Positions 44,848 through 55,341 of a DNA stretch of 64,000 nucleotides are shown one piece after another. Source of the stretch: Acetobacteraceae bacterium (lineage in GTDB: Bacteria > Pseudomonadota > Alphaproteobacteria > Acetobacterales > Acetobacteraceae); contig CANJLW010000001.1 of the NCBI GenBank assembly GCA_947475245.1, positions 100,025 to 164,024 of the forward strand. Direction: 5' to 3'. A program made the translations under genes and the position numbers. Numbering within the stretch: position 1 is the stretch's first letter; each line of letters starts with the position of its first letter. The notes under the pieces were generated by a model. That model did not search any database. It was not told the DNA's origin and was given only the letters and a program-made list of their open reading frames with translations.

Positions 44848-46062
44848 TCAGGCAGAGCCGCGCAGCCCGGCGGAAGGCGAAGCGCGCCAGGCGAGCAGGG
44901 CCGGCGCGATTGCAAGCACGCTGCCGATCAACGCCATTGTCGCGACCAGGACGCAGTCCTCGGCATCGACGCCGGTGGCCAGTGCCAGGCCGGTGTGCGC
45001 TTCCACGATGGTGCCGACGATGCCCGCGCCGATCCAACCCAACAGCAATCCGCTCAGACAGCCAACGGCCATCAGAACCGCGCCGCCGCACCAGGCGACC
45101 AGCAGGATATAGGCGCGAGAGGCACCGAGAGCGCGGAGCAAGGCGTGTCGGCGGCTCCGCAAGCCGGTCAAAGTGACCAGCAGCAAGACGATGGCGACGA
45201 AGACCAGCAGGTTATTCAACGCCGCGACCACCACCATGACATCGCGTGCGTCGCCGAGGGCGCGATAGGCGGAAACCAGCACTTCCGCCGGGAAAAAGGC
45301 CATGGTCTCCCCGGTGCGGAACTGCGCGCGCAAGGCATAGGCGTCGGCGACCGATCGGGGCTTCACGACGATGGCGGGAACGGCCGGTGGCGGATCGGCA
45401 TCGAAGGGAGGACCGATCGCGCCGTCGTCGCCCGCGTGCCCGTTGCCCAGGCCATGGGTTTCCCACACGCTTTCAATCGGCGCGACGATCGCGCGATCCC
45501 AGGGGGAGCCGAGCGGAGGCATGCGTCCGACGATTGTGTAATGGGTGTTTTCGTGCGGATGCGACGCCGCTCCGTGGCCGAGGGGCGCGTGAGACGGGGT
45601 GATCTGGTCGCCGAGACGCAGGGGCACGCTTGCGCCGATCACGACCTCGTCCTCGCGTTCGAACATGCGGCCCTGGGATGGGCGCAAGCGTCCCCAGCGC
45701 GTGGCAAAGGCCGCGGTGGTGCCGACGATCGGCAAGCCGTCGGTCTGATCGCCGAACGCAAGCGGGGCTACGGCCAGGACTCTGGGGTCGGATTGCAGCC
45801 TCGCCAGGGTCGAGCCGCGCAGAAGCGGCAGCGCTTCCGGTTGCAGGAAGACGGTCGTCAGCATCAGTTGTGTCTGGCTGCCGGGCGGGCCGATCAGCAG
45901 ATCGAAATCGTCGGCCGCGCGTGCGGAGGCGAAACGCAGGGCGCGCTCCTGCGCGGCGACGACAATGCCGATGGCGACAGCCAGTCCGATCAGCGCGATC
46001 GCGGCCACGGCGGTCCAGCGCATCGCGCGCAGATCGGCCAGGACCATGGCAAAGGGGTTCAC
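44848..46062 (-). CDS. ABC transporter permease, FtsX/MacB type, with a His-rich extracytoplasmic segment
   Basis: 404 residues. It has a first membrane segment at about 17-37, a large extracytoplasmic domain of roughly 240 residues, and three C-terminal membrane segments (about 276-300, 316-345 and 367-392), the layout of FtsX/MacB mechanotransmission-type permeases. The extracytoplasmic domain contains seven histidines at 158, 163, 168, 170, 174, 203 and 209, an unusual density that suggests metal binding. The ATG overlaps the ATPase stop (46062-46059). Together they form a type VII ABC unit. The small exported CPFC protein and alkaline phosphatase lie upstream in the same operon. The substrate is unknown; a zinc or metal role is proposed. 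Confidence 0.87.
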   Translation of the reverse strand: MNPFAMVLADLRAMRWTAVAAIALIGLAVAIGIVVAAQERALRFASARAADDFDLLIGPPGSQTQLMLTTVFLQPEALPLLRGSTLARLQSDPRVLAVAPLAFGDQTDGLPIVGTTAAFATRWGRLRPSQGRMFEREDEVVIGASVPLRLGDQITPSHAPLGHGAASHPHENTHYTIVGRMPPLGSPWDRAIVAPIESVWETHGLGNGHAGDDGAIGPPFDADPPPAVPAIVVKPRSVADAYALRAQFRTGETMAFFPAEVLVSAYRALGDARDVMVVVAALNNLLVFVAIVLLLVTLTGLRSRRHALLRALGASRAYILLVAWCGGAVLMAVGCLSGLLLGWIGAGIVGTIVEAHTGLALATGVDAEDCVLVATMALIGSVLAIAPALLAWRASPSAGLRGSA

Positions 46063-46736
46063 GACGCGATCCGTCCCGCGTTCAGCACCAGGCGGTGCTG
46101 CATGCGGTCCAGCAGTGCCTCGTCGTGGGACACCGCGATCAGGGTTGCCCCGGAACGGCGCACGGTGTCTTGCAGTAGATCGGTCACGGTCGCGGCGGTC
46201 GCGCGATCCAGGCTCGCCGTCGGTTCGTCCGCCAGGATCAGTCGCGGCCGGGCCAGCATCGCGCGGGCCAGTGCGACACGTTGTTGTTCACCCGGGGACA
46301 GCGCGCCGGCAAGTGTATCCGGTCGGGCAATGCCCATTTCCCGCAACAGGGTCAGCGCGCGGGCGCGCAGGGATCGGTCGACGGTCCAGCTGTTGAATGT
46401 CGCCGGCAAAAGGACATTCCGGACCGCGCTGAGTTCCGGGATCAGTTGAAAGTCCTGGAACACCATGCCGACGGTTTCCCGTCGCCAGCGGTCGCGCGCG
46501 CCTTCGGGCAAAGCCGCGATATCGGTCTCTCCCCAAAGCACGGCGCCGCTGTCGGGCTTCAGCAACCCGGCGAGCACATGCAGGAAGGTTGTTTTGCCGC
46601 AGCCCGACGGTCCGGCGCATCCCCAGAGCGATCCTGGTTCGGCCTGGAAGGCGTCGATTTGCAGCACCGCCATCCCGCCGAACGTCACGCGGACATCGCG
46701 CATCGCCAGAACGTCAGGCGCGGGTAAGGGTCGCAT
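46059..46736 (-). CDS. ABC transporter ATP-binding protein (LolD/MacB type)
   Basis: 225 residues with an intact cassette: Walker A GPSGCGKTT, Q-loop in VGMVFQDFQL, ABC signature LSPGEQQRVALARA, Walker B RLILADEP and the switch His in AVSHDEALLD. The closest layout is that of ATPases partnered with FtsX/MacB-type permeases. The ATG at 46736 lies inside the upstream exported-protein gene (23-base overlap) and the stop overlaps the permease start by four bases, so the three products are probably made in fixed ratio. Confidence 0.93.
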   Translation of the reverse strand: MRPLPAPDVLAMRDVRVTFGGMAVLQIDAFQAEPGSLWGCAGPSGCGKTTFLHVLAGLLKPDSGAVLWGETDIAALPEGARDRWRRETVGMVFQDFQLIPELSAVRNVLLPATFNSWTVDRSLRARALTLLREMGIARPDTLAGALSPGEQQRVALARAMLARPRLILADEPTASLDRATAATVTDLLQDTVRRSGATLIAVSHDEALLDRMQHRLVLNAGRIAS

Positions 46737-47166
46737 CGACAATCCGAAGCTGGCTGACAAATCCGTTTTCCGGATCGGTCCAGGAGCCGATTTCGAGTCG
46801 GCCCTCAACCTTCAGGCGGGTTCCGGGCGGCTGCAAGGGCGCAAGACGGCGCAGATAGACGGCCACGATATCCGTCGGCCAATCGGTGTCGCTTTGGCAG
46901 AACGGACAAAGCGCCAGCGGTTGTTCCGTCAGCACGAGAAAGCGGCTTTCCGCCTTCAACGGCGGGGCCAGATAGCCGACGATGGACACTGGCTTGTTGG
47001 CCAACCCGACAATCGCGTCGGCGAAGACCAGACCCGTGACCCCATAGCTTTTATACAGGGTCCCGAAGGCGATCCTCGCCGGTTCGGCAAAGGCCGGCGC
47101 GGAGGACAGCGCGAGGAGAAGAACCCCTCGGCGCGTGGCGGTCGCGCAATTACTTCCCGAAGCCAA
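46714..47166 (-). CDS. Small exported protein with a CPFC cysteine pair (DUF3299-like)
   Basis: 150 residues from TTG 47166, overlapping the alkaline phosphatase stop by 17 bases. Residues 1-27 form a signal peptide (RRGVLLLALSSAPAFA), leaving a compact beta-rich OB-like domain. It has VSIVGYLAPPLKAESRFLVLT, then C87-P-F-C90 followed by DTDWPTDIVAVYL, and a final GTRLKVEGRLEIGSW. The strand-CPFC arrangement resembles DUF3299-type exported proteins, some of which accompany FtsX-like ABC systems in metal-uptake loci (recalled). The cysteines may bind a metal or form a disulfide. No ATG or GTG start exists in frame, so the TTG start depends on coupling. Confidence 0.75.
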   Translation of the reverse strand: MASGSNCATATRRGVLLLALSSAPAFAEPARIAFGTLYKSYGVTGLVFADAIVGLANKPVSIVGYLAPPLKAESRFLVLTEQPLALCPFCQSDTDWPTDIVAVYLRRLAPLQPPGTRLKVEGRLEIGSWTDPENGFVSQLRIVDATLTRA

Positions 47167-48892
47167 GCGCTGTCGCGATCACGCGGAATACGCGTGTGTT
47201 GTCGATGCGGCCGCGGAAAGCCTCCGACCCCGGGCCCATGGCGGTCAGGATTACATCGTCGGCGGCGTGAACGGCCTGCGCCGCGCTTGCCGGCAGATTG
47301 CCGGTGATCCGAACGGCGCCGGGCCGGTCGCAGTTTTTCGGATTTGCGATCATGACATTTTTTTCGTTGCCGGGAATCGCGGGAACGAACTCGCCGTCGA
47401 GGTAGGGGCGATTATCGGTGCAATGGTCGGGATAGCTGCCGAACGCCAAGGCAATGCGGCGCGGCACATCGACCGAGCTTGGGTAGGGGCTGTTGCCGTC
47501 GCGCGGGAACACCGGGAACGCGGATTTGTCGTAGATGCCGAGTTTCTCGCGCGGTGTCGTCCCGGCCAGCGCATCGTCGTAGGTGCCGATGATCGAAACC
47601 GCGTGCGCATGGTCGGGCACGACGATGATGAGCGTGTCGTTCTTCTTCGCGGCAAAGGTCTTCGCGACGCGAACCGCCTCGTCCAGCATGATGGTGTCAA
47701 AGATCGCCCGCTCCGGGTCCATGGAGTGGCTGTATTTGTCGATCCGTCCGGATTCGACCATCAACACGAAGCCGTTCGGGTTTTTCGACAGCACGTTCAG
47801 GGCGGTTTGCACCTGGTCCGGCAGGTCGGGTTGATCGGGGAAGCGGTCGACGGTGCCTTTTTTCAGCACGCGGCGATCCAGCGCGCCGTCGATATTGCCG
47901 GTATTGAACAGGCCCAGGAGCTTCGTGGTTCCGGCCGCGCCGGCCGCGGCTTTCATCTCCGTCGCCGTGGAAACGAAGGTGTAGCCGGCTTCCTGGAACT
48001 TCTTCAGGTAGTCGATGTCGTCGGTGCGCTTTGTTCCGTTGACCGATTTCGGCAGGAAGTTGGGCGATCCGCCGCCCATGATCACCTCCGGCTTCACCGC
48101 ATAAAACATCCCCACAATATCATTGTAATCCGCTCGGCGGCGGGTATGCGCGACCATTCCGGCGGGGGTTGCGTCTTCGATTTCGGTGTTGGTGACTACG
48201 CCGACCGCGAGCTTGCCCTTCCGCTTGGCGAGTTCGCCGAGGGTTTCGACCTTGGGGTGATCGAGTGAGCGCGCGTTGTTGGCGCAATAGACGCCCAGCG
48301 CGTTGACGCAGGATTTGTGCCCCGTCGTGTAGGCGGACATGGAGTTCGCGCTGTCGGTGACCACGGAGTCCGTGCCGGAGGTCGAGACGAGCGCCATGTG
48401 CGGCATGTCGTCGATGGCGAGTTCGCCGCCGTAGCGGCCTTCCACCAGGCCCTTGGACATGATGCGCGCGGCGGTGCGGTGCGCGACGCTCATACCGTCG
48501 CCGACGAACAGAATGACGTTGCGCGCGACGCGGCCCTTGGGCGTGCCGAAGACTTCCCAGCGGACCTGCGCGGATTTTCCGCCGGAGGTCGCTTCGATCG
48601 TGTACTGGCCGGGCGCGGCGATGCTCGCATCCCTGATCCAGAACGCGGACTGGTTCAGCCCGTCTTCATTCCGGATGAATTTGGCCGTCGCGCCCAGGAC
48701 CTGCGCGGGCGACTTGCCGTTGACGGTCACCTTGATGTCGGCTTCGGCGGGGGCACCGGGGAACTCGACCTTGAAGTCGAATTTTGAGCCTGAGAGAATT
48801 TCCGCGCGGTTCAACGGATAAATGGTTTGTGCCTGGGCCGCGAACGCCGCGCCCATGGCGAATACCGCCGCCGCAAATCCCGATAGTCTCAT
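47150..48892 (-). CDS. phoA: Alkaline phosphatase with an N-terminal beta-sandwich domain
   Basis: A 580-residue secreted phosphomonoesterase. The signal peptide spans residues 1-22 (MRLSGFAAAVFAMGAAFAAQAQ). Residues 23-118 form an extra Ig-like domain (FDFKVEFPG, ADIKVTVNGK, GQYTIEATSGG, AQVRWEVFG). The catalytic domain follows, with metal ligand D132 (FVGDGM), nucleophile S181 in VVTDSANSMSAYTTG and distal ligands in MVESGRIDKYSHSMD and VVPDHAH. It is the first gene of a minus-strand operon with the exported CPFC protein and ABC genes, all overlapping. A candidate Pho box lies 69-86 bases upstream of the ATG. Zinc dependence is family knowledge. Confidence 0.92.
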   Translation of the reverse strand: MRLSGFAAAVFAMGAAFAAQAQTIYPLNRAEILSGSKFDFKVEFPGAPAEADIKVTVNGKSPAQVLGATAKFIRNEDGLNQSAFWIRDASIAAPGQYTIEATSGGKSAQVRWEVFGTPKGRVARNVILFVGDGMSVAHRTAARIMSKGLVEGRYGGELAIDDMPHMALVSTSGTDSVVTDSANSMSAYTTGHKSCVNALGVYCANNARSLDHPKVETLGELAKRKGKLAVGVVTNTEIEDATPAGMVAHTRRRADYNDIVGMFYAVKPEVIMGGGSPNFLPKSVNGTKRTDDIDYLKKFQEAGYTFVSTATEMKAAAGAAGTTKLLGLFNTGNIDGALDRRVLKKGTVDRFPDQPDLPDQVQTALNVLSKNPNGFVLMVESGRIDKYSHSMDPERAIFDTIMLDEAVRVAKTFAAKKNDTLIIVVPDHAHAVSIIGTYDDALAGTTPREKLGIYDKSAFPVFPRDGNSPYPSSVDVPRRIALAFGSYPDHCTDNRPYLDGEFVPAIPGNEKNVMIANPKNCDRPGAVRITGNLPASAAQAVHAADDVILTAMGPGSEAFRGRIDNTRVFRVIATALGFGK

Positions 48893-48960
48893 GACCCACA
48901 CCCTTGTTGCACCGCCGCCTCTGTCTATTCCATGAGCGGTCGGCGCGGGAGGCGAGCGGC

Positions 48961-48978
48961 GTGAAGAACGTGTGACAC
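48961..48978 (-). promoter_or_regulatory. Candidate Pho box upstream of alkaline phosphatase
   Basis: On the minus strand the sequence reads GTGTCAC-acgt-TCTTCAC: two 7-base half-sites separated by 4 bases, as in PhoB boxes (CTGTCAT-N4-CTGTCAC). The first half matches 6/7 and the second 4/7. It lies 69-86 bases before the phoA start, a sensible activator distance. Assignment is by eye only. Confidence 0.35.
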
Positions 48979-48995
48979 CTTTGGAGCGCCCCCGG

Positions 48996-50955: not shown

Positions 50956-53900
50956 ATGACGGCGACGACGCTTAGCGGCGCTTATCTCAGCACCGTCACC
51001 CTCGATGATCCCGCGACGTTCGAAACGGCGTTCGTTACCGGCACGATCGCGGCGGCAAGCGGTCCTGGTATCGCGCTGCCGGCGGGTGGCGTGGTCGATG
51101 TGCGATCGTCGGGCGCGCTGACAGGTGTATCGCAAGGGATTTTGGCAGCCGGACAGCCGGCCGGCCTGACCAACGCGGGGCGCATCATCGCGACAGGTGG
51201 TTCGGCTTCGGCCGGGATCGCGCTGCTGGCGGGCGGATCGATCACCAACCTGTCCGGCGGTCTGATCGCGGGGAACAGCGGCCTGGGCGTGACGCTCGTC
51301 GGCGCGGGAACCGTGCGGAATGCCGGCACGATTCAAGGCCAGGCGGGCGCGGTCAGGTTCTCCGCGGGGCAGAGCAATCGCCTGATCGTCGATCCCGGCG
51401 CGGTGTTCGACGGGTCGGTGGATGGCGGCAACCTGCTGACCGACACACTGGCGAGCAGCACTTTGGAACTCGCGTCGGGCGACGGGACCGTTGGCGGCAC
51501 ATTGACCGCATTGGGCGACCAGTTCGTCAATTTCGCGTCGATCGTTGTCGACGACGGGGCGCGCTGGACGCTGGCCGGGAAGAATACGGTCGCCACCGGC
51601 GCAAAATTCAGCGTGGTCGGCAGCCTGATCAATCTCGGCGAGCTGATCGCGCCCGGCGTGCTGCTGGATCAGGGCTACATTGATAATCGCGGCACGATAC
51701 AGGGCTATGTCGCGCTCGACTCCGGTGCCGGCCTGAACAACAGCGGCTCCATCACCTCCGGTGCCATCGCCGTCTACAGCAATACGCTGGGGTCGCCGAA
51801 TACCGTAACGAACTCCGGCGTCTTGGACGGCATCGCCTATTTCGGCGTGGAGTTGCGTCAGGGCGGGCTGATCGAGAACGCGGAAAGCGGCACGATTTCG
51901 GGCGGTTTCGCCGGTGTCTATACGACGCAGCCCGATACGACGGTAACGAACCGGGGGCTGATTTTCGCCCCGACCGGCGCCGATTACAGCATCGGCGTCG
52001 CGCTTGGTCAGGGGGGGATGATCACCAACCTGGCCACCGGTACCATCACCGGCGGCGTCGAAGGGATCATGGTCTACAATCAGGCCGCCACTGTGGTGAA
52101 CAGCGGCCGGGTGGACGGCACGTTTTATGTCGGTCTCTGGTTCCAGGCCGGCGGCACCGTCATCAATCACGCGAGCGGCGTCGTGCTGGGCGGTTACGCC
52201 GGGGTCTATGCCAGCAACACCCTCGCGTCGGTGATCAACCAAGGCCAGATCGCCGCGCGCACCGGGAACAGGGTCAGCGACGGGGTCGCGCTTTACGGCG
52301 GCGGGTATGTTTCCAACAGCGTGTCCGGCACCATATCCGGCGGCGATGTCGGCGTGCTCATAACCGGAGGCGCCGGAACCGTCGTCAACGCCGGATCGAT
52401 CTTCGTCACGGGCACCAGCGGTTCCGCGATCAAACTCGCATCCGGCTTCGATCATCGCGTGGTGTTCAAGCCCGGAGCCTACACCTACGGGCTGGTCGAC
52501 GGCGGCAACGCGATCGGCGGCACCCATGCCAGCACGCTGGAACTGGCGGCAGGCGGATCCGGCACCATTGCCGGTTGGGGCGGCACCTTCATCAACTTCG
52601 CGCGGTTGGAGGTCGATGCCGGCGCGATCTGGACATTGAACGGCAGCAATACGCTCGCCGAAGGCGCGACGCTGACGGTCGACGGCGCATTGTTCGACAA
52701 CGGGCGGCTGCGGGTCGCCACGCTGGCCGGTTCGGGCGGGGTGACGATCGGTAGCGCGGGGGTTTTGGAGCTCAGCGGTTCGGCGTCCTCGTCGGCCGGC
52801 ATAGTCTTTGGAAATTCGCCAGGCGGTGTGTTGCTGCTGCCGGGGGTTGGCAGCGGATTTTCCGGATCGATCGGCGGTTTCGCGGCGGGGGACCGGATCG
52901 AGTTGGCGGGTGTCTCGATCACCGAGGCGTCCATCGTCGACAGCTCATCGAGCGGTTCCTCGGGCGCTGCCGCGAGCGGCGCGGTCTCGGTGCGCGTGCG
53001 CGGCGTCAGAACGGCGACCTCCGAGGCGGTTGACTATACCCTCGCCTCGGTGGGGTTGGCCGACGGCGTTTCCGGCAGCTTTCTGATCGGGCAGGACCTG
53101 ACCAATGGGGCAGGGTTTCTGCAGGCGGTCATGGTGCCGCGAACCCTGAGTTGGACCGGATCGGTCGGCACGGAATTCGCCGATCCCGCGAACTGGAACG
53201 ACCTGACGGACGGCCACAACCCCGCGCTGAGGGGACCGAACGCCGCGGATACCGGCATCTTCCTGGCCAGCGGCGGCACCATCGAGGGGACAGGTACCGT
53301 CGGGTCGGCGCGCTTCGTGGGAAGCAAGCCCTGGGCATTGGTCAATGGCGGTTCCATCGGCGTCCAAGGTTCGGTGACGGTCGGCGGGCCCGCCGGCGGG
53401 CGGCTGTCCCTGACGTCCGGCGCGCTGCTGACCGCGGACGGATCGTTGCATGTGATGGCCGACTCCGGTCAGAACGCGACATTGATCGTCGATGGCGGCG
53501 CGACCACGCTGGCCGCGCGCGGGATCGATCTTGGCGGGGTCGGCGCTGCCTCGCTGTCCGTCGCCAATGCCGGGACGCTGGCAGTCGGCACTGACGGGAT
53601 CGTCCTGGGTTCGGACGAGCATGGGGTGACCGCGATCAGCGCGATCGGTGCCGGTGCCGCGATCGAATCGGCCGGCGCGATGGTGATCGGCGATCTCGGC
53701 TTCGGCAGCCTCTCGATCCTGTCCGGCGCGCATGTGTCCGCCAATGCCGGCGGAGCAGCCGCCGACGGCGCGACGATCGCGCGCGTCGATCACGCCGACG
53801 GATCGTCCGTCACGGTCAGCGGGGCTGGGTCCAGCTGGCAAATCGGCGGGCGGCTGGTGGTCGGCGCCGACGGTGCCGGTGGTTTGGCGATTTCCGCCGG

Positions 53901-55341
53901 CGGGTCCGTCGCGGCCGGCAGTATCGAGATCAGCCGGTCGGAACACGGCGTCGGCAATGTCTCCGTCACCGGGCAGGCCAGCCGGTTGATTGCCGACGGC
54001 ACTCTGATTGTCGGCAATGCGGCGGCCGGTGTCCTGTCGATCCAAAACGGCGCGACTGTCGGTGCCGCGGCGGTGACGCTGGGCCTGGCGGAGGATGGGA
54101 CCGGCAATCTCGATATTCAGGGCGCGGGCAGCAGCCTGCTGATCTCGGGGCGGCTGATCATCGGCGGCGCGGGCCATGCGCAATTGACGATCGGCAAGGG
54201 CGCGACCGTATCCGCGACCGATGGGTTCACCGTCGGTCTCGGCGGTGTGGTGACCCAGTTCGGCGGCGTGCTGGATCCCCCGGTCATCAGCCTGAATGCG
54301 GGCCTGATCGGCGGTATCGGCACGCTGGAAGGCGATATCGAGAATAACGGGACGATTTCCGCCGGGCGCGGTCGCTATGAACTGACCGGCAATGTGACCA
54401 CCGGGGCGGGGCAGAGCGGGACGCTCACCATCGCCGGCGGTCCGTCGCAGCTTGTGCTCGATCAGGGGGTGGACGGCGGCCAGCACGTCTTTTTCAGTTC
54501 CGCCACCGGTACCCTGACGTTGCTGCGCCCCGGCCTGTTCCAGGGGATCATTCACGGCTTTCAGTTCGGCGACACGATCGAGGCGATCGGCGCCACCGGC
54601 GGCGTATTCGACGGCGATACGCAGACGCTGACGCTGGATTCCGGCGGCGTGCTGCGGTTCGCGAGCGGCATCGCGGGCGGGACGGTGACGGTCAGCCTGA
54701 CCGGCATCGTATCGGCCACCGCGACGGCGTCCACCGACCTGACCGGCGGCTGCTTCGCCGAAGGCTCGGGCATACTAACCGAACGGGGCCGCGTGCCGAT
54801 CGAAACCTTGCGACCCGGGCAAACCGTGCGCACCGCGTCCGGGCGCAGCGCGCCCATTGTCTGGATCGGCCACCGGCGGGTCGAATGCCTGGCACATCCG
54901 AACCCGGAGGACGCATGGCCGATCCGGATCGCGCCGCATACTTTCGGGCCCGGGCTGCCGGAGCGGCCGTTGTTCCTGTCATCCGATCATGCGGTGTTCG
55001 TCGACGGCGTTCTGATCCCGATCGGCCTTCTGCTGAACGGGGACTCGATCCGCAGACAAGCGACGGACTGCCTGACCTATTGGCATCTCGCGTTGGATCG
55101 GCACGATATTGTCCTGGCGGAAGGGCTGCCGACAGAAAGCTACCTCGATACCGAGGCCCCCGACGGACTCGGGACGGGCGCTTCCCTGTTTTCCGACTTC
55201 AATGCCCGCAAATGGGAGTCCGACGGCTATGCGGCGTTGATCCTGACCGGACCGGCGTTGGAAGCCGTGCGCGCCCGACTCAGTTGCGCTGGCGCGCGCG
55301 TACTCGTTCCCGATGCGCGGTATACAGCCCACTCGCGATAA
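50956..55341 (+). CDS. Giant repeat protein with C-terminal Hint (Hint_2) domain
   Basis: 1461 residues. The first 600 or so are a beta-helical array of short repeats (e.g. VTNSGVLDGIAYFGVEL, VVNSGRVDGTFYVGLWF, VINQGQIAARTG), followed by further autotransporter-like glycine/serine-rich repeats of mostly 30-70 residues (SLSVANAGTLAVGTDGIVLG, LSIQNGATVGAAAVTLG). A Hint_2 domain begins at C1266 (GGCFAEGSGILTERG), with SSDHAVFVDGVLIPIG and LDRHDIVLAEGLPTESYLDT. There is no N-terminal signal peptide and no beta-barrel, so secretion would need a type I or other route. The 3' end overlaps the convergent transporter gene by 62 bases. Function unknown; probably a surface or extracellular protein with an autoprocessing module. 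Confidence 0.88.
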   Translation: MTATTLSGAYLSTVTLDDPATFETAFVTGTIAAASGPGIALPAGGVVDVRSSGALTGVSQGILAAGQPAGLTNAGRIIATGGSASAGIALLAGGSITNLSGGLIAGNSGLGVTLVGAGTVRNAGTIQGQAGAVRFSAGQSNRLIVDPGAVFDGSVDGGNLLTDTLASSTLELASGDGTVGGTLTALGDQFVNFASIVVDDGARWTLAGKNTVATGAKFSVVGSLINLGELIAPGVLLDQGYIDNRGTIQGYVALDSGAGLNNSGSITSGAIAVYSNTLGSPNTVTNSGVLDGIAYFGVELRQGGLIENAESGTISGGFAGVYTTQPDTTVTNRGLIFAPTGADYSIGVALGQGGMITNLATGTITGGVEGIMVYNQAATVVNSGRVDGTFYVGLWFQAGGTVINHASGVVLGGYAGVYASNTLASVINQGQIAARTGNRVSDGVALYGGGYVSNSVSGTISGGDVGVLITGGAGTVVNAGSIFVTGTSGSAIKLASGFDHRVVFKPGAYTYGLVDGGNAIGGTHASTLELAAGGSGTIAGWGGTFINFARLEVDAGAIWTLNGSNTLAEGATLTVDGALFDNGRLRVATLAGSGGVTIGSAGVLELSGSASSSAGIVFGNSPGGVLLLPGVGSGFSGSIGGFAAGDRIELAGVSITEASIVDSSSSGSSGAAASGAVSVRVRGVRTATSEAVDYTLASVGLADGVSGSFLIGQDLTNGAGFLQAVMVPRTLSWTGSVGTEFADPANWNDLTDGHNPALRGPNAADTGIFLASGGTIEGTGTVGSARFVGSKPWALVNGGSIGVQGSVTVGGPAGGRLSLTSGALLTADGSLHVMADSGQNATLIVDGGATTLAARGIDLGGVGAASLSVANAGTLAVGTDGIVLGSDEHGVTAISAIGAGAAIESAGAMVIGDLGFGSLSILSGAHVSANAGGAAADGATIARVDHADGSSVTVSGAGSSWQIGGRLVVGADGAGGLAISAGGSVAAGSIEISRSEHGVGNVSVTGQASRLIADGTLIVGNAAAGVLSIQNGATVGAAAVTLGLAEDGTGNLDIQGAGSSLLISGRLIIGGAGHAQLTIGKGATVSATDGFTVGLGGVVTQFGGVLDPPVISLNAGLIGGIGTLEGDIENNGTISAGRGRYELTGNVTTGAGQSGTLTIAGGPSQLVLDQGVDGGQHVFFSSATGTLTLLRPGLFQGIIHGFQFGDTIEAIGATGGVFDGDTQTLTLDSGGVLRFASGIAGGTVTVSLTGIVSATATASTDLTGGCFAEGSGILTERGRVPIETLRPGQTVRTASGRSAPIVWIGHRRVECLAHPNPEDAWPIRIAPHTFGPGLPERPLFLSSDHAVFVDGVLIPIGLLLNGDSIRRQATDCLTYWHLALDRHDIVLAEGLPTESYLDTEAPDGLGTGASLFSDFNARKWESDGYAALILTGPALEAVRARLSCAGARVLVPDARYTAHSR

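Follow-up and report, generated by a model that had tools for sequence, protein, structure and literature searches.

The 64,000-nucleotide stretch of Acetobacteraceae DNA analyzed here (contig CANJLW010000001.1; hereafter, the window) carries an operon in which phoA, encoding a secreted alkaline phosphatase, is followed by genes for a small exported protein with a Cys-Pro-Phe-Cys motif (the CPFC protein), an ATP-binding cassette (ABC) ATPase, and an FtsX/MacB-type permease. Alkaline phosphatase is a zinc-requiring enzyme. The operon is best explained, with a probability that we place at about 0.6, as a zinc-requiring secreted phosphatase combined with a dedicated periplasmic zinc-handling machine, similar to the Zrg system of Vibrio, which would supply PhoA; this figure includes a weaker version in which the machine merely keeps zinc available while PhoA is made. 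Its purpose is probably that secreted PhoA gets its zinc when zinc is scarce. As judged from gene order and family assignment, the four genes have been conserved together, both the permease and the CPFC protein fall into the same broad families as the Zur-regulated Zrg and PA4063-PA4066 systems, and the unit of some relatives carries predicted phosphate-starvation and/or zinc-starvation sites. The four open reading frames lie on the minus strand and overlap in series by 17, 23, and 4 bases. The coordinates and overlaps, as well as seven His residues within residues 158-209 of the permease and Cys87/Cys90 of the CPFC protein, are all as claimed in an earlier note on this DNA.

Either the CPFC protein or the permease, and never phoA, served as the query for gathering the loci for comparison; a later CPFC profile (A2) was built mostly from phoA-linked members. 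In total, 103 unevenly drawn loci, most of them supplied by two families, were examined. phoA is present in 78 of the 88 loci with a strong CPFC homologue (score of at least 90), and all four genes were detected in 76 loci, window included. The usual order is phoA, CPFC, ATPase, and permease (the ATPase of L063 is on the opposite strand), and the CPFC stop comes 500-599 base pairs (bp) after the phoA stop in 57 of the 76. Conservation of the order beyond close relatives, on which the earlier note had made its idea depend, is borne out, since the order recurs within Alphaproteobacteria, in a second class of proteobacteria, and in Deinococcota. It is seen in the named records of Bosea lathyri, Palleronia marisminoris, Shinella zoogloeoides, Azospirillum sp. 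B510, Paracoccus methylovorus, and P. pantotrophus, and, in another phylum, Deinococcus radiodurans MP1, Thermus thermophilus, and Allomeiothermus silvanus. In the unannotated record of Rhizobium tropici CIAT 899, frames for phoA, CPFC, and the permease follow one another in this order, and the spacing leaves room for an ATPase. In overlapping samples with weak matches counted, CPFC matches occurred in 15/385 genomes at the level of the class and in 14/398 at the level of the phylum; two families gave 31/295 and 42/199, and another class gave 7/274. Among 59 genomes (its own included), only the window's own gave a match. Local acquisition alone as an explanation is ruled out by the wide spread of the gene order, despite the absence of a match in all 32 congeners.

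The CPFC protein (Cys87-Pro-Phe-Cys90), read from a TTG that is the first listed start past a stop, has a Tat-like (twin-arginine translocation) signal, ATRRGVLLLAL. A twin-Arg (RR or RK) with a hydrophobic run is present in 72 of the 76 CPFC proteins compared to 20 of 65 PhoA signal regions under the same rule, and the CPFC motif itself is kept in 76/76 four-gene loci. No Pfam or NCBIfam family exceeded its cut-off for this protein. The link to the DUF3299 type (PF11736) suggested earlier is not borne out at the Pfam cut-off, where the window protein gives no match, but it stands in the sense of remote kinship. A sub-threshold DUF3299 match was obtained for one of 24 family members (E 0.034), CPFC-bearing intermediates at L080 and L084 exceed the DUF3299 cut-off, and hhalign of the CPFC family against DUF3299 gave a match that is moderate only (52.7%, E 1.4e-4). 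The AlphaFold2 model (predicted local distance difference test, pLDDT, 73) adopts an oligonucleotide/oligosaccharide-binding (OB) fold, and a Foldseek search of 350,542 PDB chains ranked the DUF3299 protein PA4066 (4hsp) first at E 4e-4, by a small margin, with further OB folds next at 6e-4; a four-sequence CPFC profile searched against PDB sequences gave no match, whereas the fold search did. VIA-align of the model with 4hsp gave a Z of 9.3 over 112 residues, which is tied with generic OB folds, and the fold alone is therefore no proof of DUF3299 kinship. When the families are aligned jointly, all 49 sequences (24 CPFC-family, five intermediate, and 20 DUF3299) keep the first Cys; in DUF3299, His (20/20) stands at the position that is Phe in most of the CPFC family, and the second Cys is missing. 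Taken together, profile, alignment, and model indicate remote kinship between the CPFC protein and DUF3299 proteins such as ZrgE and PA4066, with common ancestry and an OB fold predicted at the superfamily level. We infer that this exchange between a Cys/His and a Cys/Cys pair resembles a metal site more than a thiol switch.

Fourteen loci with weak matches to the CPFC profile were also fetched (L078-L084, L165, and L203-L208), with one more (G979) left out. In five of these (L082 and L204-L207), the weak CPFC gene, which lacks the Cys pair, adjoins PhoA while the ABC genes are missing (5/5); PhoA was found by search at L082 and L204-L206 and by eye at L207, where it runs off the contig. These five proteins (A5) are tied to the CPFC family by hhalign (99.0%, E 8e-18). 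Three others without PhoA (L080, L084, and L208) adjoin an ATPase and a permease of the module type.

The ATPase matches Pfam ABC_tran (9.7e-30) and is nearest to FtsE/LolD-type models, yet below the NCBIfam cut-offs. The permease matches MacB_PCD (1.6e-8) and FtsX (9.5e-7) and has a large extracytoplasmic domain between transmembrane helices 1 and 2, in which His residues occupy positions 158, 163, 168, 170, 174, 203, and 209. Conservation of these residues, anticipated in the earlier note, applies to three of the seven columns: His158, His170, and His203 are His in all 76 phoA-linked permeases. The same triad is found in seven of seven further named-record permeases and in 15 of 15 permeases adjoining DUF3299-type genes. 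Among 20 permeases from a permease search, 15 weak FtsX-family relatives, presumably of LolC/E- or MacB-type, have none of the three His, whereas five closer ones have all, two of which are already counted among the 15 DUF3299-linked ones. In the 76 four-gene loci, His averages 11.4% of the segment versus 1.15% in the rest of the permease, and many phoA-linked permeases have extra His-rich insertions, with up to 20 His in the segment. The co-occurrence of the genes goes beyond chance because the CPFC motif (76/76), the His triad (76/76), and this enrichment of His accompany it. The window system thus shares the MacB_PCD and FtsX domains and an FtsE/LolD-like ATPase with the MacB/LolCDE/FtsEX mechanotransmission family, but it falls under the NCBIfam cut-offs for LolCE, LolD, FtsE, and MacB and carries a His triad that the 15 other FtsX-family permeases lack. 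A LolCDE identity was rejected, both TIGR02212 (19.1 vs. 362) and TIGR02211 (148 vs. 308) being under the cut-off, as was a MacAB-TolC identity, as the ATPase gene is separate from the permease and no MacA adaptor is present among the direct neighbors of the operon. A search of the permease against the PDB gave one weak match.

The window PhoA matches PF00245 with E 1.5e-78 (265 bits vs. a cut-off of 24.4), has relatives among the solved PhoA structures, and starts with a signal peptide, MRLSGFAAAVFAMGAAFAAQA, recognized by eye. The motifs VGDG, TDSANS, ESGRIDKYSH, and PDHAH are all present, and their ligand roles are assumed to be those of E. coli PhoA; the E-x4-D-x3-H pattern is found in 75/76 four-gene loci. 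The enzyme shares the catalytic domain and metal motifs of PhoA, and differs from a typical PhoA in a possible N-terminal immunoglobulin-like domain (I-set, 0.0043, under the Pfam cut-off) and in being coupled to the ABC module within an operon. PhoA proteins of the four-gene loci fall into two best-hit classes (46/76 and 30/76). On a quick permease tree with three groups, the PhoA-type labels need three changes where the least possible is two, which weakly suggests that the PhoA type may have been swapped within the module.

The 300 bp before phoA were scanned in the 76 four-gene loci, with 2051 control windows from the same loci, for Pho boxes (at least 12/14) and the Zur-like palindrome GTTATNNNATAAC (at most one mismatch). 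A Pho box occurs in 20/76 loci versus 4/2051 control windows, at -31 to -86, and the palindrome in 6/76 versus 2/2051, at -92 to -142; L177 and L199 have both sites. For 82 promoters, shuffling predicts 0.1 Pho-box and 0.23 palindrome matches per set, compared to 20 and 7 seen. The Fisher values of 8e-27 (Pho box) and 5e-8 (palindrome) overstate the case, given that these are related species and that most of the control sequence is coding. Four genomes (G669, G1397, G1006, and G1356) have a perfect palindrome at phoA, and their genome-wide totals of perfect sites (phoA site included) are 5, 1, 3, and 2. Of the seven copies away from phoA, five have as neighbors ZnuA/FUR-family, ZinT, cobW-type (two copies), and ZnuA plus ZinT-domain genes. 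In G669, the copies are found by a znuA/FUR-family pair, by zinT, by a cobW-type gene, and at an rnhB side; in G1006, by a cobW-type gene and at an rnhB side; and in G1356, by a ZinT-domain protein adjoining ZnuA. G1397 has no other perfect site, and the reversed control pattern occurs there once. The cobW-type genes presumably have a zinc role. Two genomes with one mismatch at phoA have two perfect sites each elsewhere: in G1494, which also has three occurrences of the reversed control pattern, they are at zinT and at a lysE-like gene, and in G951 at znuA and an rnhB side. The same palindrome is contained in the Zur site of Vibrio zrg (PMC9817125). The palindromes before some phoA operons add support to the predicted zinc link.

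Three genomes (L133, L213, and L216, near position 1501) show a perfect GTTATNNNATAAC beside an rnhB-like gene (by eye) and a membrane protein; this rnhB-side palindrome may mark a Zur target that has escaped recognition, or else some other kind of conserved site. At L211 (1528-3012), an AztD-like zinc chaperone domain (by eye) is fused to a ZinT domain (Pfam), and the fusion adjoins a His-rich ZnuA behind a Zur-like palindrome. The same palindrome class precedes genes of the ZnuABC, ZinT, and AztABCD systems in some genomes (AztD by eye), but those systems use another transporter class and other binding proteins than the window operon.

The parallel with Vibrio Zrg, which the earlier note had drawn, proved to be correct: zrgE encodes a DUF3299 protein, zrgB the permease, and zrgC the ATPase, under Zur regulation (PMC9817125). 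Zrg is described as a zinc uptake system, and the resemblance of ZrgB to MacB is discussed (PMC9820375). PA4063 is reported as a low-affinity periplasmic zinc protein (PMC8561739), and Zrg and PA4063-4066 are both Zur-controlled (Zrg: PMC9817125). Similar to these systems, the window operon encodes an ABC ATPase and a MacB/FtsX-type permease as separate proteins, a remote relative of their exported OB-fold DUF3299-type protein, and the three His columns shared by permeases beside DUF3299-type genes; in some window relatives, the Zur palindrome of Zrg recurs at phoA. There are also clear differences. ZrgA (DUF2796) is not recognized in the window operon, where phoA comes first instead; Pfam found no DUF2796 in the four operon proteins or the downstream gene, and the upstream gene is glnS by eye. 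Zrg/DUF3299 proteins have C-x-H, whereas the window OB protein has CPFC and no Pfam DUF3299 match. Phosphate-starvation sites distinguish the window type through its relatives, and the Zur site before the Zrg operon has no counterpart upstream of the window phoA. No phoA-ABC-DUF3299 operon is described in the titles and abstract openings listed by searches of the open-access literature, although mention inside full texts, such as Pho-regulon papers, is possible. The term "alkaline phosphatase" is absent from the main text of PMC9817125, PMC11481552, PMC8561739, and PMC9820375.

The proposed supply of zinc to PhoA is supported by the presence of phoA in 78/88 strong loci, with two PhoA classes and the same order in Deinococcota, by the distribution of the His triad and the invariant first Cys with its Cys/His partner change, and by the remote CPFC family that adjoins PhoA without ABC genes in 5/5 loci. 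In the proposed mechanism, phosphate starvation would lead to bulk PhoA synthesis and thereby to zinc demand in the periplasm, where the permease His site and the paired Cys residues of the OB-fold protein could capture scarce Zn2+. Cytoplasmic ATP hydrolysis would then drive a conformational change in the extracytoplasmic domain, as in MacB/FtsX-type mechanotransmission, handing the zinc to apo-PhoA. PhoA would thus occupy the operon place held by zinc-binding ZrgA in Zrg, and the module would be used when phosphate is short and be able to work when zinc is short. We infer the zinc flow, the contact with PhoA, and the mechanism from sequence comparison. A stronger version, which we regard as possible but rather doubtful, is an ATP-powered metal-insertion machine for a secreted enzyme, in which the FtsX-type pair would use cytoplasmic ATP to load periplasmic apo-PhoA with zinc that the extracytoplasmic His site and the CPFC protein, exported via Tat, have caught, the periplasm itself being without ATP; with Zur and PhoB both in control in some species, phosphate scavenging could persist under zinc-phosphate co-limitation. 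The earlier proposal that the system supplies or recycles zinc for the phosphatase is upheld in large part, though not in full, by homology, synteny, and sites in relatives, and the alternative there of exporting a phosphate-linked substrate found no support.

Several observations weigh against this interpretation. Of the 76 loci, the window's among them, 52 have neither a Pho box nor a palindrome; in the 300 bp before the window phoA, the best palindrome has three mismatches of 10 and the best Pho box scores 9/14. Ten of the 88 strong CPFC loci lack phoA (L060, L061, L062, L064, L065, L066, L067, L154, L163, and L164, of which L060 and L064 are contigs below 5 kb), as do nine of the 14 weak-match loci in the adjoining position, and the phoA-adjacent A5 proteins are devoid of both Cys. 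PF00245 was detected in 14 of 162 alphaproteobacterial genomes, only four of which have the module beside phoA (G000, G048, G074, and G181), with the CPFC gene of G048 apparently decayed; this coupling was not found in the ten others, which are absent from a CPFC match listing that shows matches rather than every genome searched. Most PhoA enzymes in this alphaproteobacterial sample therefore manage without the module. The middle His column lies in a gappy loop under a permissive alignment, and an ad hoc spaced pattern fits only 56/76. The AlphaFold2 permease model (four sequences) has a pLDDT of 49 and is usable for helices only, its extracytoplasmic domain being too poor to judge whether the three His meet. 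Lastly, a 2024 study proposes that PA4064-4065, as a transporter of the MacB type, exports a pyochelin-cobalt complex, and it reports PA4066 to be without evident zinc binding (PMC11481552).

Among the other explanations, a Zrg-like zinc importer sharing the phoA promoter fares best, though we consider it rather unlikely; PhoA synthesis would drain zinc and cytoplasmic uptake would be co-expressed, PhoA itself not being served. No solute-binding protein was recognized in the operon by Pfam and NCBIfam, and the remote CPFC family pairs with PhoA without ABC genes. To our knowledge, MacB/FtsX-type permeases have four transmembrane helices, and we know of no import path through them to date. The importer could nevertheless account for the Zur-like sites at the operons of relatives and would be in line with Zrg, which is reported to support growth in low zinc (PMC9817125, PMC9820375). 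A machine for folding, disulfide formation, or release of PhoA not acting via metal, through CPFC thiol redox and ABC-driven PhoA release or secretion, appears improbable. The CxxC-like motif in 76/76, the cysteines present in the window PhoA, and the direct coupling to PhoA would fit it, but the single Cys plus His of aligned DUF3299 proteins (20/20) is more suitable for metal binding than for thiol exchange, and the Zur-like sites would be left unexplained. It is very unlikely that the system exports a metal or metal chelate as proposed for PA4063-4066 (pyochelin-cobalt), in spite of the MacB resemblance and the P. aeruginosa phenotypes (PMC11481552): no adaptor, outer-membrane channel, or metallophore gene was recognized directly beside the window operon, and phoA would not be explained. 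A mere neighborhood of phoA and a Lol/MacB-type transporter that have no functional link, suggested by the weak TIGR02212 (lolCE) similarity, is scarcely credible given a module kept in two phyla and two PhoA classes, contrary neighborhood counts, and a His triad missing in 15 other FtsX-family permeases.

The window features are collected in the table. The operon is flanked downstream by an enoyl-CoA-hydratase-type gene (Pfam) and upstream by glnS (by eye), approximately 100 bp past which phoA begins.

Table. Features of the phoA operon in the window (positions are those of the 64,000-nucleotide stretch).
Feature	Position	Strand	Basis or remark
phoA, exported alkaline phosphatase, 580 amino acids	47150..48892	-	Pfam PF00245
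Exported CPFC protein, 150 amino acids	46714..47166	-	Open reading frame; fold model; profile comparison
ABC ATPase, 225 amino acids	46059..46736	-	Pfam, NCBIfam
FtsX/MacB-type permease, 404 amino acids	44848..46062	-	Pfam; family alignment
His-rich permease stretch, residues 158-209, seven His	45436..45591	-	Coordinates derived from the open reading frame
glnS-phoA gap, 103 bp, presumed promoter (if any)	48893..48995	-	No Zur-like palindrome, no Pho box

Some related loci show further arrangements. In Deinococcus aetherius pDAETH-1 (L225), a CPYC relative of the exported protein comes after phoA, and neither an ATPase nor a permease adjoins them directly. pstS is convergent to the operon and directly adjoins it in G048 and G181 (L029 and L059); in G048, phoA, ATPase, and permease frames were found beside the decayed-looking CPFC gene, with one stop inside the permease match. 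At L066 (7474-10249), a CPHC variant, shared by L065 and L067, lies divergent to genes for a ZnuA-type zinc-binding protein and a NicO transporter, with neither the ABC genes nor phoA present, and a lone CPFC gene at L163 (4570-6252) adjoins apparent HupE/UreJ-type metal transport genes (by eye). Beyond glnS, the window contains on the plus strand (50956-55341) a 1461-amino-acid, repeat-rich open reading frame with a Hint-like C-terminal end (by eye).

Whether the Zrg/PA4063-4066 ABC systems serve zinc uptake or cobalt-pyochelin export is disputed (PMC9820375, PMC11481552). A natural version joined to a known zinc enzyme turns the Zrg question into an enzyme assay, namely the zinc content of PhoA without the ABC genes, and genetically workable carriers exist: D. 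radiodurans R1 has the operon, and Rhizobium tropici CIAT 899 appears to have it. If the stronger version, a metal-insertion machine, is true, the Zrg/PA4063-4066 systems would by extension deliver zinc within the periplasm and would be neither importers nor metallophore pumps. We know of no earlier dedicated metal-supply machine for PhoA. Zinc-dependent PhoA has been contrasted with iron-dependent PhoX (PMC5454538), and the module, if it works as proposed, would also bear on zinc-phosphorus co-limitation.

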